From NCBI RefSeq assembly GCF_007679345.1, contig NZ_VEGH01000004.1, positions 62,001 to 126,000 of the forward strand: a DNA stretch of 64,000 bases, in the 5' to 3' direction. The notes below the pieces were generated by a model. It was not told where the DNA came from, did no database searches, and worked only from the letters and a program-made list of their open reading frames with translations. Shown piece by piece: positions 10,809 through 17,176 of the stretch. The DNA is from Cellulosimicrobium cellulans. GTDB taxonomy: Bacteria > Actinomycetota > Actinomycetes > Actinomycetales > Cellulomonadaceae. The translations under genes and the position numbers were made by a program. Each line of letters starts with the position of its first letter. Position 1 is the stretch's first letter.

Positions 10809-12878
10809 ATGTTCCCCCGGATCCTCCTGGCGGCCGCGCTGGTCGCCGGCCCCGGCCTCGCCGTGCCGGTCGCGGCGGGCGCCGACCGGGCGCCCACCAC
10901 CGTGACGGCTGCGACGGCGGCGGGTGATCCCGACGTGACGGTCTCCGACGTCCCGGTCGTGGTGCCGGCGACCGACGCCGCGGGCGTCGTCGTGACGCCG
11001 GACGACGTGCCGGCCGGGGCGGTCGTGGCGGAGCCGGCGGACGGGGGGACGGGAGACGCGCTGCGCGTGCCCGATCCCGTGGCGCCCGGCGACGCGGCCG
11101 AGCCCGGCCCCACCGCCAGCCCGGAGCCGTCCGCCAGCCCTGAGCCGTCCGCGAGCCCGGAGCCGTCCGCGGCGTCCGTCCCGCAGCCCGACGACGTCGC
11201 GGCCGACCGGCTCGTGACCGGGGAGATCCCGACGGACGAGGCGCAGACGCTCGGCCTGACGTGGCCCGCGGACGCGGTCGACGTCGCGGCGCTCGACGCG
11301 CAGGTGCGCACCCGAGACGGCGAGGTCTGGTCCGACTGGGAGGCGCTGCAGGTCGACGACGTCGCCCCCGACGCCGGCACCCCCGACGCCGAGTCCGCGG
11401 TCCGCGGCGGGACCGCGTCGCTGTGGTTCGGCGACGCCGAGGCCGTCCAGCTGTCGTTCGCGGCCACCGAGGAGGGCGGTCCGGACGATCTGCGGGTCGT
11501 GCTGGTGGGGTCGCAGGAGGACCCCGACGCGGCCGGGACGCCGGCACCGGCCGGACCGGTTGTGGCGGGCGCCTCGGCGACCGGTGAGCCCGTGCTCCGC
11601 ACCGCGGCGTTCAGCACGGGCGCCGCCTCCGTCCAGTCCGCCGCGGCGGCGCCCGCGATCTACCTGCGCGGCCAGTGGGGTGCGGCCGCGGCGAGCTGCA
11701 CGCCGGACAAGGCGAGCTCGCTGGTCGGCGCGGTCGTGCACCACACCGCTGGCTCGAACAGCTATGGCAGCGTGGCCGAGGCCATGCAGATGATCCGCAA
11801 CGACCAGCGGTACCACATGACCGGCCGGGGCTGGTGCGACCTGGGGTACAACTTCGTGGTCGACAAGTGGGGCAACGTCTACGAGGGGCGCGGCGGCAGC
11901 ATGACGAGCCCCGTGATCGGCGTGCACGCCGGCGGCTTCAACACCGGTACGGTCGGCGTGGCCATGCTGGGCACGTACGACGCCGCGCCGTCCGCGGGGA
12001 CCGTCTCCGGGGTCGCGGCCGTGATCGGCTGGCGGCTCGGTGCCTACAACGTCGACCCCGGCGGCTGGATGTCCTACCGGACGGGGGTCGGGGAGAACTC
12101 CCGGTACCAGAACACCACCGTGACGCTGCCGCGCGTCTTCGGGCACCGGGACGTGTCCTACACGGCGTGCCCCGGCAACGGCGGGTACTCGGTGCTCCAG
12201 GCGATCCGCGACCAGGCGCGCGCCGCCTACTTCGACCCGGCGGAGTACGCCGCCTCGCGCTCGGTGGTGACCGCGCTCTACACCGACCTCCTGGGCCGCG
12301 GCCCGGACCCGACCGGGCTGCAGGGCTGGTCCGCGGCGCTGCTGTCGGGGACCAGCCAGTCGGCGCTGGTCGACACCCTGACCCGCAGCGACGAGTACAT
12401 CTCGAAGCGCGTGGCGAAGGCCTACCGCGAGGTGCTCGGCCGCGAACCGGAGGGGGTCGGGGCCAACAACTGGCTCGTGGCCATCCGCAACGGCCAGGCG
12501 ACGGTCGACGACGTCCAGCGCCGGTTCTACGACTCCGACGAGTACTTCGCCGCCTCGGGCGGCACGATGCAGGGGTACGTCCAGCGCCTCTACACCACCA
12601 TGCTGCGGCGCGGCGCGGGCCCGGCGGAGGTGAACCAGTGGGTCACCCTGGCGAAGCAGCACGGGCGCGCGTGGGTCGTCGACTCGATCTGGTGGTCGGT
12701 GGAGGCCGCGTCGATCCGGTCGGGCGACTACTACCAGACGTTCCTGGGCCGTGGCCCCGACCCGACCGGCCAGGCCGCCTGGGCGCAGGTCCTGCTCCAG
12801 CGCGGGGAGGGGGCCGTGCGGACGGGCATCGCCGGCAGCCTCGAGTACCGCGGGCGGGCGATCGCGCGGTTCCCGTGA
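10809..12878 (+). CDS. Secreted N-acetylmuramoyl-L-alanine amidase (PGRP/Amidase_2) with DUF4214 tail
   Basis: A 689-aa exported protein predicted to cut the amide between MurNAc and the stem peptide. Residues 1-22 form a signal peptide (ILLAAALVAGPGLAVPVAAG). A Pro/Ala/Asp-rich region with three SPEPSA repeats (about 102-120) and a beta-rich prodomain follow. The PGRP catalytic domain spans about 283-470 with zinc-ligand candidates in VVHHTAG, the conserved YNFVVDKWGNVYEGRGG, and FGHRDVSYTACPG. Residues 483-689 are four DUF4214 repeats. ATG 10809 begins the signal peptide; the longer frame upstream is antisense to the neighbouring gene. The DUF4214 tail is nearly identical to that at 16494-17116. 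Confidence 0.9.
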   Translation: MFPRILLAAALVAGPGLAVPVAAGADRAPTTVTAATAAGDPDVTVSDVPVVVPATDAAGVVVTPDDVPAGAVVAEPADGGTGDALRVPDPVAPGDAAEPGPTASPEPSASPEPSASPEPSAASVPQPDDVAADRLVTGEIPTDEAQTLGLTWPADAVDVAALDAQVRTRDGEVWSDWEALQVDDVAPDAGTPDAESAVRGGTASLWFGDAEAVQLSFAATEEGGPDDLRVVLVGSQEDPDAAGTPAPAGPVVAGASATGEPVLRTAAFSTGAASVQSAAAAPAIYLRGQWGAAAASCTPDKASSLVGAVVHHTAGSNSYGSVAEAMQMIRNDQRYHMTGRGWCDLGYNFVVDKWGNVYEGRGGSMTSPVIGVHAGGFNTGTVGVAMLGTYDAAPSAGTVSGVAAVIGWRLGAYNVDPGGWMSYRTGVGENSRYQNTTVTLPRVFGHRDVSYTACPGNGGYSVLQAIRDQARAAYFDPAEYAASRSVVTALYTDLLGRGPDPTGLQGWSAALLSGTSQSALVDTLTRSDEYISKRVAKAYREVLGREPEGVGANNWLVAIRNGQATVDDVQRRFYDSDEYFAASGGTMQGYVQRLYTTMLRRGAGPAEVNQWVTLAKQHGRAWVVDSIWWSVEAASIRSGDYYQTFLGRGPDPTGQAAWAQVLLQRGEGAVRTGIAGSLEYRGRAIARFP
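11115..11168 (+). repeat. Three tandem 18-bp repeats inside the amidase gene
   Basis: Three copies of an 18-bp unit (11115-11132, 11133-11150, 11151-11168) differ only by single substitutions. They encode the hexapeptide A-S-P-E-P-S three times, a flexible linker typical of secreted actinobacterial proteins. Copy number may vary between strains. Confidence 0.8.
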
Positions 12879-12889
12879 ACCGGCGGTAG

Positions 12890-12941
12890 CGGCACGGCGG
12901 AGGGCCGGCACCCGAGCGGGTGCCGGCCCTCCGCCGTGCCG
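12890..12941. terminator. 52-nt perfect hairpin between amidase and wzt
   Basis: A 25-bp perfect stem (12890-12914 with 12917-12941) and a two-base apex (realistically a larger loop) lie between convergent genes. No T-run follows, so it would act as a bidirectional GC-rich terminator or a transcript-stabilising element. A related hairpin follows the other DUF4214 gene. Confidence 0.8.
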
Positions 12942-12969
12942 GGGACCCGCCCGGGCGCCAGGCGGGGCG

Positions 12970-14187
12970 TCAGCCCTGCACGCGGTCCAGCACCAGCTCC
13001 GGGGAGGCCCAGACGGGGCCGACCGTGGTCCCGTCGGACGTCACCGTGAAGCTCGCGGACTCCCGCAGCCGGGCGAGCTCGGCGCCGCTGGGGCCGGCGA
13101 CGGCCCCGTGGCACGTGTAGCTGCCCTCGCCCAGGCGCAGGTCGCGGAGTCGGATCTCGAAGCGCTGACGCCCGATCAGCGGCGGCAGCGTGAGGCCCAG
13201 CAGCGTGGTGTTGGTGCCGAGCACGTTGACCCCGAGCCCGGTCTCGATGCCGACGCCGATCGTGGGGTCGGCCACGGCCTCGGTCGCCTGGACCGTCACC
13301 GCGATCACGACGTCGGCGCCCGGCGTGATCGTCGAGGCGGGGGAGCCGTCCGCACCGAGCAGCTCGACGGACTCCACCGTGACGCGCGGCGCTGCGGGCT
13401 CCTCGATGCGCTCGGCGGTCTCGCGCCGGTGCTCGAGGTCCTCCTGGCGCTGCTGGTCGAACTCGTGCCGCAGGGTGCGCAGCGCGTCGCGGGTCTCGCC
13501 GTCCGCGATCACGCGACCGCTCTCGAGGACGACGGCCCGGTCGCAGACGTCGGCGACCTGGTCCAGCGAGTGGGTCACCAGCACGATGGTGCGACCGTCG
13601 TGCTGGAACTCCCGGATGCGGTCCATGCACTTGCGCTGGAACGGCTCGTCACCGACGGCCAGCACCTCGTCCACCAGCAGGATGTCCGGATCCACGTGCA
13701 CCGCGACGGCGAACGCGAGGCGGACGTACATCCCCGAGGAGTAGAACTTGACCTGCGTGTCGATGAACCGCTCGATGCCGGAGAAGTCGACGATGGCGTC
13801 GAAGTACTTGTCGGTCTGCGCGGTCGACAGGCCGAGGATCGAGGCGTTCAGGTAGACGTTCTCGCGCCCGGTGAGGTCCGGGTGGAACCCCGCGCCGAGC
13901 TCCAGGAGGGCCGCCATGCGGCCGCGCGTGCGGACGGTGCCGGACGTCGGCTGCAGGATGCCGCCGATCGCCTTCAGCAGGGTGCTCTTGCCGGACCCGT
14001 TGGGCCCGACCAGGCCGACGGTCGTCCCGGACTCGATCTCGAGGTCCACGTCGCGCAGCGCCCAGAAGTCCTCCTTGTGGAGGTTCGAGCGCCCGAAGTT
14101 GACGATGCGCTCCTTGAGCGACTTCTCCTTGCGGATCACGAACCGCTTGGACAGGCCGTGGACCTCGACAACGGTGGTGGTGGTCAT
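12970..14187 (-). CDS. wzt: Polysaccharide ABC exporter ATPase with C-terminal glycan-binding domain
   Basis: A 405-aa ATP-binding subunit of a teichoic acid/O-antigen type exporter. The ABC domain has Walker A GPNGSGKST at 61-69, the family-typical degenerate signature SSGM at 150-153, and Walker B with D173-E174. From about residue 275 a beta-sandwich extension (PRVTVESVELLGADG ... FTVTSDG) resembles the Wzt C-terminal domain that reads the finished end of the polymer in O9a-type systems. ATG 14187 overlaps the wzm stop. The carrier with this domain implies a length- or cap-controlled polymer. The methyltransferase at 20226-21182 could make such a cap (inference). Confidence 0.92.
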   Translation of the reverse strand: MTTTTVVEVHGLSKRFVIRKEKSLKERIVNFGRSNLHKEDFWALRDVDLEIESGTTVGLVGPNGSGKSTLLKAIGGILQPTSGTVRTRGRMAALLELGAGFHPDLTGRENVYLNASILGLSTAQTDKYFDAIVDFSGIERFIDTQVKFYSSGMYVRLAFAVAVHVDPDILLVDEVLAVGDEPFQRKCMDRIREFQHDGRTIVLVTHSLDQVADVCDRAVVLESGRVIADGETRDALRTLRHEFDQQRQEDLEHRRETAERIEEPAAPRVTVESVELLGADGSPASTITPGADVVIAVTVQATEAVADPTIGVGIETGLGVNVLGTNTTLLGLTLPPLIGRQRFEIRLRDLRLGEGSYTCHGAVAGPSGAELARLRESASFTVTSDGTTVGPVWASPELVLDRVQG

Positions 14188-15089
14188 CAGAGCTCCTGGG
14201 CGAAGTTGCCCTGCAGGCGCGCGAAGACGCGCTGGGCGACGAACGTGAACACGACACCGATCCCGAGCCAGGCCCAGAGCATCCCCGCGAGGCCGTCGGG
14301 GACGGGCTGGCCGTCGCCGGCCACCCAGAACGTCTGCTGGAAGCCCATGATCGCGGCGGTCATCGGGTTGGTGAGGTACAGCTTCTCGAGCGTGCCGCTG
14401 CCGAGGCCGTCCTGGACGAGCTGCCACGAGTAGACGATCGGCGACGCCCAGAACGCGATCATGATCGCGATCTCCACGAGGTACTGGATGTCGCGGAGGT
14501 AGACGTTGATCGCGGACAGCAGCAGCGACCACCCGAGGGCGGTCACCACGATGACCGCGAGCGACAGCGGGAGGTAGCCCCAGCGGGACCCGGTCGGGAA
14601 GTTCCCCACGGCGATGGTCGCGGCGACGAGGATCCCGAGCTGGATCACGAAGTTGAACAGCGCAGACCCCATGGACGCGAGCGGGAAGATCTCGCGGGGC
14701 AGGTACACCTTCTTCACCAGGCCGGCGTTCTGCACGATCGAGGCGGTCCCGGTGGACACCGCCTCGGAGAACAGCCCCCAGGCGGTCAGGCCGGTGTAGA
14801 TGAAGATCGCGAAGTCCGGGATGTTCCGGGCCGCGCCCAGGAACTTGCCCAGGGCGATGTAGTAGATGAGCAGCAGCGCCAGCGGGCGCATCAGGCTCCA
14901 CACGAAGCCGAGCGCGCTGTCCTTGTACCGGGCCTTGACCTCCCGCTTGACCAGCAGGTTCAGCAGCTCGCGGTGTGCCCAGATGTCCTGCACCGAGTGC
15001 CCGAAGCCGCGGAAGACGCCGGGTCGGGTGCCGGCGGTCCGCAGCGGCTGGGTGGCGAGCTCCAGAGCGCGGGCGTCGCGGAGGTCCAT
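14187..15089 (-). CDS. wzm: Polysaccharide ABC exporter permease
   Basis: A 300-aa ABC-2 type permease with six predicted membrane segments. The N-terminal cytoplasmic helix VQDIWAHRELLNLLVKREVK and the following KARYKDSALGFVW are hallmark sequences of TagG/Wzm proteins. It exports a lipid-linked polymer made in the cytoplasm, powered by Wzt, whose ATG overlaps its stop. A putative -10 TAGAGT lies 51 bp upstream (15140-15145). The pair is isolated between two secreted wall-enzyme genes transcribed in the opposite direction. Confidence 0.93.
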   Translation of the reverse strand: MDLRDARALELATQPLRTAGTRPGVFRGFGHSVQDIWAHRELLNLLVKREVKARYKDSALGFVWSLMRPLALLLIYYIALGKFLGAARNIPDFAIFIYTGLTAWGLFSEAVSTGTASIVQNAGLVKKVYLPREIFPLASMGSALFNFVIQLGILVAATIAVGNFPTGSRWGYLPLSLAVIVVTALGWSLLLSAINVYLRDIQYLVEIAIMIAFWASPIVYSWQLVQDGLGSGTLEKLYLTNPMTAAIMGFQQTFWVAGDGQPVPDGLAGMLWAWLGIGVVFTFVAQRVFARLQGNFAQEL

Positions 15090-15139
15090 CGTTCTCCTGG
15101 GGGTCGGCCGACGGTCGGGACTGCCCGACCGGCGCCGAC

Positions 15140-15145
15140 ACTCTA
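15140..15145 (-). promoter_or_regulatory. Putative -10 (TAGAGT) of wzm-wzt
   Basis: Minus-strand GGGTAGAGTGTC in the 161-bp divergent gap between wzm and the SpoIID-like gene. It matches the element at 8295-8300. No clear -35 is visible. Confidence 0.35.
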
Positions 15146-15250
15146 CCCGTCACCCGGACGCACCCCTCCGGATCCGCCCGCCGGCGGGACCGCGGCGGGG
15201 ATACTGGACCCGCCGGTCCGCGCCCGCGGGCCGCGGACGATCGGAGCACC

Positions 15251-17116
15251 ATGCCCGTCAGACTCGCCCGCGCGGTCGCGCGCCTCGCGGCGCTCGCCCT
15301 CGTGGCCGCGGTGGCCCTGGTGGCCGGCGCACCCGCCGAACGCGCCGAGGCAGCACCAGGCGACACGCTCACGGTCTCGGGCCACGGCTGGGGCCACGGC
15401 CGCGGCATGGGCCAGTACGGGGCCCTCGGCTACGCGGTCGACCACGGCTGGTCCGCCGCGCAGATCCTCGACCACTACTACGGCGGCACCGTCGCCGGGA
15501 ACGTGGGCAACCGGGAGCTGACGGTGGAGCTGACCGCGCTGACCGGCAGGGAGCTCGTCGCCATCGGACGCGACCTGCGGGTCAACGGCGCGGCCGTGGG
15601 CAGCGGGAACGTGGCGATCCTGGCCCGCGCGCAGTCCGACGGGTCGGTGCAGCTGTTCACGTCGACGACGTGCGCCGGGCCGACGTGGACGCCGCTGGCC
15701 GGGTCCTACCGGGCCGGCTCGCTGGAGATCGGGACCGCGAGCCAGGCGGGGTTCGACCGCCTGATCCGCGTCTGCGAGTCCGCCGGCGAGCGCGCCTACC
15801 GCGGGACGCTGTCCGTCCAGCGCGTCAACGGCAGCCAGATGACGTTCAACCGTCTCGGTTCGGAGGACTACCTGCGCGGCGTGGTGCCGCGGGAGTCGCC
15901 CGCCTCCTGGGGGTCGGCGGGCGCAGGGCGCGGGATGCAGGCCCTGATGGCGCAGTCCGTCGCGGCCCGGAGCTACGCGCTCTCCGGCACGCGCCCGTCG
16001 GGCGCGACCACGTGCGACACGACGGCGTGCCAGGTCTACTCCGGCGCCGCGTTCCAGGCCTGGAGCCAGGCGCAGACGGTGCTCGACGCCGCCGCGACGA
16101 ACCAGGCGATCGACGCCACCGCGGGGGTCGTGCGGCTCAAGCCCGGCACCGGGACGGTCGTGCGGACCGAGTTCAGCTCCTCGACCGGCGGCTACACCGC
16201 CGGCGGAGCCTTCCCCGCGGTCGTGGACGAGGGTGACGACACCGCCTCGAACCCGAACCACAGCTGGGTCACGAGCATCCCCGTCGCGACCGCGTCCGCC
16301 CAGCTCGGGGTCGGGACGATCCGGTCGATGGCCGTGACGCAGCGCAACGGCCTCGGTGCCGACGGCGGCCGGGTGCTCCAGGTGTCGGTGTCCGGCTCGT
16401 CCGGCTCGCGCACGATGACCGGCAACGAGGTACGCGTCGCGCTCGGCCTCAAGAGCGACTGGTTCAGCATCAGCTGGACGTCGCCCGCCGAGGCGGCGTC
16501 GGTCGTCACCGCGCTGTACGTCGACCTCCTCGGTCGCGGCCCCGACCCGACCGGCCTGCAGGGCTGGTCGGCCGCGCTGCTGTCCGGGACCAGCCAGTCC
16601 GTCCTGGTGGACACGCTCACCCGGAGCGACGAGTACATCGCGAAGCGGGTCGCCAAGGCCTACCGGGAGGTGCTGGGCCGCGAGCCGGACCCGGTCGGGG
16701 CGGAGGCGTGGCTGGTGGCGATCCGGGCCAGGCAGTCGACGGTCGACGACGTCCAGCGCCGGTTCTACGACTCGGACGAGTACTTCGCCGCGTCGGGCGG
16801 GACGTGGGAGGGGTACGTGCAGCGGCTCTACACCACGATGCTCCGCCGCGGCGCGGGTCAGGCGGAGGTGGCGCAGTGGGTCTCCCTGGTCGGTTCGCAG
16901 GGCCGCGCCTGGGTGGTCGACTCCATCTGGTGGTCGCAGGAGGCGGCGGCGATCCGCGCCGGCGACTACTACCAGACCTTCCTCGGCCGCGGGCCGGACC
17001 CGGCGGGCCAGGCCGCGTGGGCGCAGGTGCTGCTGCAGCACGGCGAGGGGGCGGTGCGCACCGGTATCGCGGGCAGCCTCGAGTACCGGGCGCGCGCCAT
17101 CGCGCGGTACCCGTGA
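15251..17116 (+). CDS. Secreted SpoIID/LytB-domain protein with DUF4214 tail
   Basis: A 621-aa exported protein. A signal peptide (LAALALVAAVALVAGAPAERAEA) ends near residue 34. The SpoIID/LytB domain spans about 40-410: it has GHGWGHGRGMGQYGALGYA at the N-terminal end and the typical YLRGVVPRESPASWG, AQSVAARSYAL and EFSSSTGGYTAGG motifs. SpoIID-family proteins are lytic transglycosylases acting on glycan strands lacking stem peptides, so it could follow the amidase at 10809. Residues 415-621 are a four-repeat DUF4214 tail almost identical to that amidase's. ATG 15251 starts the signal peptide; the longer frame is antisense to wzm. Confidence 0.88.
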   Translation: MPVRLARAVARLAALALVAAVALVAGAPAERAEAAPGDTLTVSGHGWGHGRGMGQYGALGYAVDHGWSAAQILDHYYGGTVAGNVGNRELTVELTALTGRELVAIGRDLRVNGAAVGSGNVAILARAQSDGSVQLFTSTTCAGPTWTPLAGSYRAGSLEIGTASQAGFDRLIRVCESAGERAYRGTLSVQRVNGSQMTFNRLGSEDYLRGVVPRESPASWGSAGAGRGMQALMAQSVAARSYALSGTRPSGATTCDTTACQVYSGAAFQAWSQAQTVLDAAATNQAIDATAGVVRLKPGTGTVVRTEFSSSTGGYTAGGAFPAVVDEGDDTASNPNHSWVTSIPVATASAQLGVGTIRSMAVTQRNGLGADGGRVLQVSVSGSSGSRTMTGNEVRVALGLKSDWFSISWTSPAEAASVVTALYVDLLGRGPDPTGLQGWSAALLSGTSQSVLVDTLTRSDEYIAKRVAKAYREVLGREPDPVGAEAWLVAIRARQSTVDDVQRRFYDSDEYFAASGGTWEGYVQRLYTTMLRRGAGQAEVAQWVSLVGSQGRAWVVDSIWWSQEAAAIRAGDYYQTFLGRGPDPAGQAAWAQVLLQHGEGAVRTGIAGSLEYRARAIARYP

Positions 17117-17139: not shown

Positions 17140-17176
17140 GACGGAGGGCAGGCACCCACGGTGCCGGCCCTCCGTC
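17140..17176. terminator. Hairpin after the SpoIID-DUF4214 gene
   Basis: A 17-bp stem (17140-17156 with 17160-17176) has one mismatch and a three-base apex. Its core (GGAGGGC-GGCACC and complement) matches the core of the hairpin at 12890-12941, suggesting the terminator was duplicated with the DUF4214 tail. Confidence 0.7.

Follow-up and report, generated by a model that had tools for sequence, protein, structure and literature searches.

Matched and exchangeable C-terminal tails on two putative wall-remodelling enzymes of an actinobacterial polysaccharide locus suggest a surface-targeting role for DUF4214

In the hydrolases of pneumococci, unrelated catalytic heads carry one type of polymer-binding tail, the choline-binding repeats, for which the ligand is known. 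A similar sharing of one tail type by unrelated heads is found in the locus described here, which lies in a stretch of 64,000 nucleotides of Cellulosimicrobium cellulans (hereafter the window; contig NZ_VEGH01000004.1, positions 62,001 to 126,000, part of contig C44 in our numbering of a 4.58 Mb genome). In this window, a putative amidase and a putative SpoIID/LytB-domain protein bear nearly identical tails of the DUF4214 type on either side of the genes wzm and wzt of an ABC exporter. A second parallel is offered by CWB2 repeats, which, according to PMC4973711, are required for binding of the wall polymer PSII in Clostridioides difficile. These too are repeat modules that are present on many wall proteins and bind a polymer of their own cell, and they constitute one of the tail classes of the enzymes studied here. 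CWB2 (PF04122) is nevertheless distinct from the tails of the window, since neither protein has a match to it at E 0.01, and for the DUF4214 tail a structure of helical repeats is predicted. LGFP repeats (PF08310) occupy the same place on both enzymes but are unrelated to DUF4214 in sequence. Wzt_C (PF14524), known from O-antigen exporters, is present in the Wzt of the locus and is likewise distinct from DUF4214. DUF4214 itself (PF13946) is classified in Pfam as a domain of unknown function, and both tails exceed its curated cut-off by far.

The amidase gene (10809..12878, plus strand; identified by open reading frame calling and Pfam) encodes 689 residues, including a PGRP-like Amidase_2 head (PF01510, residues 307-457, 52.4 bits versus a cut-off of 26) for which amidase activity is predicted. 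Its tail of 205 residues (12261..12875, plus strand) is defined by alignment, an AlphaFold2 (AF2) model of helical repeats and relatives among the phycobilisome (PBS) linkers. The second enzyme gene (15251..17116, plus strand, 621 residues; SpoIID E 1.6e-17) has a head matching PF08486 (64.4 bits, cut-off 23) and TIGR02669 (109.5 bits, cut-off 83.3), and scores below the spore_II_D equivalog cut-off (67.6 versus 234.75 bits); according to alignment and tail trees, its tail (16499..17113, plus strand) belongs to the amidase-type lineage, in contrast to seven of ten SpoIID tails that were compared. The N-termini of both proteins resemble Sec signal peptides by eye, and both are putatively secreted to the wall. 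Between the two genes, on the minus strand, are located wzt (12970..14187, 405 residues), coding for an exporter ATPase with a C-terminal Wzt_C domain (ABC_tran E 1.4e-21, Wzt_C E 5.3e-21), and wzm (14187..15089, 300 residues; ABC2_membrane E 7.1e-15), coding for a permease of a subtype that we name Wzm-A. By its domains, an ABC2_membrane permease beside a Wzt_C ATPase, the pair qualifies as an ABC polysaccharide exporter. The NCBIfam equivalogs for teichoic acid and galactan exporters score below their cut-offs (187.4 of 538, 180.1 of 320, 165.8 of 400 and 58.6 of 380 bits).

The tails of the amidase and the SpoIID protein align without gaps and are identical at 179 of 205 amino acids and at 517 of 618 nucleotides (stop codon included), while the heads are taken to have no meaningful similarity (local score 41). 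Nucleotide differences between the tails fall on codon positions one, two and three in the ratio 18/15/68 (NG86 dN 0.089, dS 0.545). These results bear out what had been proposed from the sequence alone, namely that near-identical DUF4214 tails on unrelated heads bracket wzm/wzt, with the tail being 205 instead of about 206 residues long. As the heads are unrelated, we rejected the idea that one entire gene had recently been duplicated. The two tails score 87.2 and 87.9 bits against DUF4214 (E 8e-25 and 4.6e-25; cut-off 23.2). As to the proposed division into four repeats, the best AlphaFold2 model is all helical and can be read as four repeats (mean pLDDT 90.5, from an alignment of 4 sequences; the remaining four models have pLDDT of 62.5-71.8), and Pfam finds three stretches in the amidase and four in the SpoIID protein.

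The tail is a module that is exchanged on both enzymes in relatives. Our first survey comprised 58 genomes (the own one, 35 of the same genus and 22 others of the order; individual genomes, contigs and loci are denoted below by G, C and L numbers), with amidase heads in 47 and SpoIID heads in 28 of them (both at E<=1e-10). In genomes lacking DUF4214 tails, the examined heads often bear other tails, and some SpoIID proteins have none. Loci were fetched mostly where the two genes lie near each other (on separate contigs in G011 and G050), picked by eye among the matches listed, and represent a non-exhaustive sample. They contain 77 amidases, 66 SpoIID proteins and 3 fused proteins; both heads are present in 62 genomes, 13 of which have no C-terminal tail on SpoIID. 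In the 49 genomes with C-terminal tails of at least 50 residues on both proteins, the tails were assigned to 11 classes (phmmer E<1e-10), and the two enzymes carry the same class in 46 (10000 shuffles gave 9.6 on average and never more than 21). At E 1e-15 and 1e-20 agreement is 45 of 49, as the FG-GAP class splits and G057 becomes a mismatch. Pairs already seen while the idea was being formed agree in 15 of 17 cases and those unseen when fetched in 31 of 32, although for five of the latter (G009, G032, G036, G047 and G057) at least one tail was known beforehand. Where a genome had two SpoIID proteins or amidases, the longest-tailed one was used; the second SpoIID protein has no C-terminal tail in G009, G025, G032 and G413. 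The mismatched pairs are G029 (DUF4214 on the amidase, class R on SpoIID) and G051 and G332 (LGFP and V); the SpoIID protein of G029 (L235:6908-9193) has a tail of YWLxASDGGVFAFG-type repeats in place of DUF4214. Since the genomes are related, the matched pairs are not independent; on the amidase-head tree the tail class needs at least 10 changes, and on the SpoIID-head tree at least 7. Five of the 13 genomes without a C-terminal SpoIID tail have a class U module at the SpoIID N-terminus, which matches the amidase in G020 and G024 and mismatches it (amidase class W) in G002, G030 and G274. Two genomes encode a single open reading frame in which amidase, SpoIID and one FG-GAP-class tail are fused (G349, L185:6878-10030; G407, L186:7487-10645).

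When representatives were scanned with Pfam, the CWB2 (2/2), LGFP (1/1) and DUF4214 classes were recognized, as were two of three FG-GAP representatives (G050 and G349). The third, G147, has no FG-GAP match, so that this class should be seen as a linked group and not as a single family. No tail match above the Pfam cut-off was obtained for the scanned representatives of classes X, Y, Z, W, U, V and R. The LGFP class is found on both enzymes in 10 genomes. Class X tails, such as that of L227:15365-18349 (G028), consist by eye of repeats of about 115 residues with the motif RVLDTR; for nine of the 14 class X genes, the surrounding stretch encodes a Wzm of another subtype, which shares 32-37% identity with the Wzm of the window.

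The clearest single case in which the tail type goes with the genome and not with the head is G084, a member of another family (head tests were based on 33 of the 62 genomes). The amidase head of its locus, apparently native, groups with those of its genus mates G052 and G069 (91/80, below the starred level), whose tails are of class Z, whereas the tail in G084 is DUF4214; monophyly of the ten DUF4214 amidase heads is rejected (p-AU 0.0006). For the SpoIID head of G084, placement with the genus mates is rejected (p-AU 4.7e-7), and it lies with SpoIID heads of DUF4214 genomes (92/89). A second G084 amidase, encoded on another contig, also has a DUF4214 tail on a head nearest to an LGFP-tailed amidase (66%), and the tails of the two G084 amidases form a group (96/93). 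The same genome also encodes a polysaccharide deacetylase with a DUF4214 tail.

The tail also co-occurs with one exporter subtype. Taking Wzm-A as matches at about E 1e-90 plus G011, in which the gene is split across two contig ends, we found it in 17 of the 58 genomes. The tail protein matches 14 of the 58 at E<=1e-3, and the ten with matches at 1.3e-21 or better all have Wzm-A. Among the four weaker ones (G003, G006, G010 and G018) it is present in G010 only; including this genome, seven further genomes have Wzm-A (G001, G007, G010, G015, G017, G019 and G031). In a sample of 396 genomes from the whole order DUF4214 is rare, with five genomes at E<=1e-7 (G000, which is the genome of the window, G014, G175, G044 and G084) from three families. 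Absence of co-occurrence with the exporter had been set beforehand as the outcome against the sequence-only reading; instead, all five genomes carry Wzm-A and are among the eight with a Wzm match at <=1e-100 (the others being G010, G244 and G393). In G014 the DUF4214 match is a metalloprotease-like protein and the amidase gene is interrupted by a contig end, and in G044 Wzm-A lies on a different contig from the two enzyme genes. When 73 amidases were classed, one per genome, Wzm-A accompanied 11 of 11 DUF4214 tails and 4 of 62 tails of other classes. The Wzm tree separates the 11 DUF4214 genomes from nine of the 14 class X genomes with support of 100/100, while the amidase heads of these class X genomes and of the DUF4214 genomes overlap in their similarity to that of the window (59-71% and 47-80%, respectively). 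The DUF4214 class requires 2 changes on the Wzm tree versus 4 on the amidase-head tree, and class X 1 versus 2; it is for these two classes only that the Wzm tree fits better. The arrangement of the window recurs in Actinotalea sp. C106, with two additional genes inside, and, as reasoned from contig ends, also in Cellulomonas sp. URHE0023 (G005); three loci were retrieved when contigs were searched with both tails of the window. We regard the link between tail and exporter as good by co-occurrence, with few independent events behind it.

Taken together, these observations raise the possibility, which we hold to be evenly balanced, that the DUF4214 tail is a surface-targeting tag common to wall-remodelling enzymes and fitted to the polymer of this exporter. 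More tentatively, and with somewhat less than even confidence, we suggest that actinobacteria of this order use matched, interchangeable tags which are replaced along with the polymer system, the DUF4214 tag being specific for the Wzm-A polymer. Several points weigh against this interpretation. Once the N-terminal modules of SpoIID are counted, agreement falls to 48 of 54. Four Wzm-A genomes have class Y amidase tails. Independent contrasts between tail and exporter are few (n=3, each pointing the way expected; p 0.25 by sign test). Intermixing of the amidase heads of the DUF4214 and X classes was not demonstrated (p-AU 0.218). Over 48 genomes and all classes, the Wzm tree and the amidase-head tree each require 8 tail changes, and the idea that tail class in general tracks the exporter better than the head is unsupported. 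Metalloproteases, RCC1-repeat proteins and FkbM methyltransferases are further bearers of DUF4214, and the domain is a relative of the phycobilisome linker domain, a protein binder. Finally, genes of one locus can travel together without being functionally matched.

The last point leads to a different explanation, in which the exporter, the SpoIID gene and that end of the amidase gene which encodes the tail travel and evolve as one unit, and in which common inheritance and local gene conversion produce the pattern with no shared ligand. The amidase tail end does adjoin the exporter in the window, and SpoIID heads of DUF4214 genomes group across three families (97 SH-aLRT; 92/89 in a second tree), this group including G029 in spite of the class R tail of its SpoIID protein. 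Copying also occurs. There are two old lineages of DUF4214 tails, one borne by amidases and the other by SpoIID proteins, and the tail of the second protein is of the amidase type in four cases, namely the window, G005, G026 and Actinotalea sp. C106. The homogenised tails pair by genome (99/95 for the window, 96/84 for C106), with identity within the genome of 198 of 201 nucleotides over the stretch covered in G005 and 613 of 615 in G026. In G026 the head of the partner is of a third type that Pfam does not match (a search of this genome at E<=1e-10 gave no SpoIID head), and the contigs of G005 end inside the tails, as expected for collapsed repeats. Repeated copying or conversion inside each genome best explains the likeness of tails in these four genomes. 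We rejected simple local copying as the general cause of matched tails, because seven of the ten DUF4214 genomes that have both tails carry them as the two separate old lineages and not as recent copies; such copying does account for the window, C106, G005 and, between the amidase and the third protein, G026. The same seven genomes speak against linkage as a sufficient explanation, as do the second G084 amidase, which sits on another contig and combines DUF4214 with a head nearest to those of LGFP-tailed amidases, and the fact that in G020 and G024 class U does not sit at the same end of the two proteins. We consider linkage alone improbable.

A stronger rival to the targeting of enzymes to an exported polymer comes from the fold of the tail. 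A profile of 16 tails searched against solved structures retrieved phycobilisome linker proteins (ApcE, E 7.5e-21), and the 50 best of 196 Foldseek matches are phycobilisome entries, one of the 196 being under E 0.001; TM scores by target are 0.51-0.65 for single-domain linker entries. The linker domain (PF00427) is thus related in profile and fold, although both window proteins remain under its cut-off (23.9 and 23.7 versus 28.7 bits) and the setting is that of wall enzymes. In phycobilisomes this fold binds proteins, which makes a protein ligand a real rival for the tail. Accordingly, the tail might bind a protein, such as a surface scaffold or an S-layer-like assembly, or associate with itself, so that the enzymes would be docked on a protein platform. 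Published statements fit such a role: PMC12780176 treats DUF4214 in segmented filamentous bacteria as a likely surface-anchoring domain with no ligand named, and PMC11970703, in which an extracellular enzyme held at the surface is suggested, refers to DUF4214 proteins believed to assemble into an S-layer-anchored enzyme. In PMC6034559 DUF4214 appears in a peptide list, and the passages on the domain in these three papers do not tie it to a glycan. On the other hand, CWB2, a polymer-binding class (PMC4973711), takes the same place on the enzymes, and in the fused proteins one tail serves both heads, so that pairing between tails is not needed. On balance we find the protein platform unlikely, while less so than linkage. 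The suggestion made from the sequence alone, that the tail is a binding module for the exported glycan or a wall anchor, fares unevenly: a shared exchangeable module is well supported, whereas the exported glycan as its ligand is inferred, since other classes take the same place, class Y occurs with Wzm-A, and the fold is that of phycobilisome linkers.

The range of proteins that bear DUF4214 is relevant to yet another possibility, namely that the tail serves as a signal for secretion or sorting, or stabilises proteins in a generic way, and has no target specific to the locus. The C-terminal position of the tail in the amidase and SpoIID proteins and its presence on several unrelated heads are compatible with this. 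However, in two proteins (L063 and L055) DUF4214 precedes RCC1 repeats, and the tail classes differ in sequence, which is not predicted by a common sorting machinery; CWB2, LGFP and FG-GAP also differ in fold. We judge a sorting or stabilising role to be very improbable. In the own genome, DUF4214 gives 11 matches at E<=1e-3, which fall at four sites, namely both genes of the window, a metalloprotease-like protein encoded on contig C22 and an FkbM methyltransferase protein 16 kb beyond the window, the last scoring 24.4 bits in one scan and 21.4 bits, below the cut-off of 23.2, in another. At the DNA level, the tail matches itself, the other window tail and a 40-base piece on C22 (40 of 414 candidates scored). 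FkbM methyltransferases with DUF4214 lie amid surface-polysaccharide genes in the own genome (L020:5801-7348, where the match stays below the Pfam cut-off) and in G013 (L068:7452-9092). By eye these have no visible signal peptide, so that DUF4214 may also occur inside the cell. Among 50,697 phage records no protein with a DUF4214 tail was found, and 19 plasmid records, from genera that we take to be proteobacterial, match the tail with identity of at most 31.4%.

Each of the two enzyme genes of the window is followed by a hairpin, one directly 3′ of the amidase gene (12899..12932) and the other 3′ of the SpoIID gene (17143..17173), which were found by an arm search and have an arm in common. 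This 14-nucleotide arm has four matches with at most one mismatch in the 64 kb, all of them in the two hairpins (0.37 expected), and one of the copies has one mismatch. The copied tract may have carried a terminator along, or the hairpin may be a dispersed element; the arm was not seen in the printed downstream stretches of C106, G026 and G033. The genes around are those of a surface-polysaccharide locus: Pfam recognizes glycosyltransferase and GDP-mannose-dehydratase-like genes, and rhamnose genes are seen by eye. A second Wzm-A-type permease, 58% identical to that of the window, is encoded elsewhere in the same genome (G000, C33:147491-148384).

If the DUF4214 tail does act as a surface-targeting tag, it would do so as a non-covalent one on secreted wall-remodelling enzymes, by means of which a PGRP-type amidase and a SpoIID/LytB-type enzyme of one wall-polysaccharide locus would act at one place. 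Wzt_C acts in the cytoplasm in carbohydrate recognition, and its presence in this Wzt makes such a step likely on the inside of the membrane; outside, the DUF4214 tag would most likely recognise the polymer that Wzm/Wzt exports, or else a surface layer based on this polymer, and bring peptidoglycan cutting to the site of polymer insertion. Each lineage would carry the same tag on both enzymes, and upon a change of the surface polymer system the tags would be replaced together. To speak of a new targeting system, as the sequence-only reading did, overstates the case, since the principle of wall-binding tails is known; the apparent novelty lies in tails that match on two enzymes and in DUF4214 serving as such a tag. 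A literature search, limited in coverage and wording, found no paper on matched tails or on combinations of SpoIID, amidase and tail, and the titles listed by a further search do not concern the walls of Cellulomonas.

The question addressed by these results is how the cutting of peptidoglycan and the insertion of wall polymer are brought to the same place. A matched tail linked to an exporter, as in the case of DUF4214, provides a testable handle on it. A role is thereby proposed for DUF4214, and the position on the enzyme pair may allow wall-binding classes to be predicted, among them X, Y, Z and further ones that Pfam does not match. Should the interpretation be true, the class of the tag would tell, with nothing but sequence at hand, the wall polymer that each enzyme serves.

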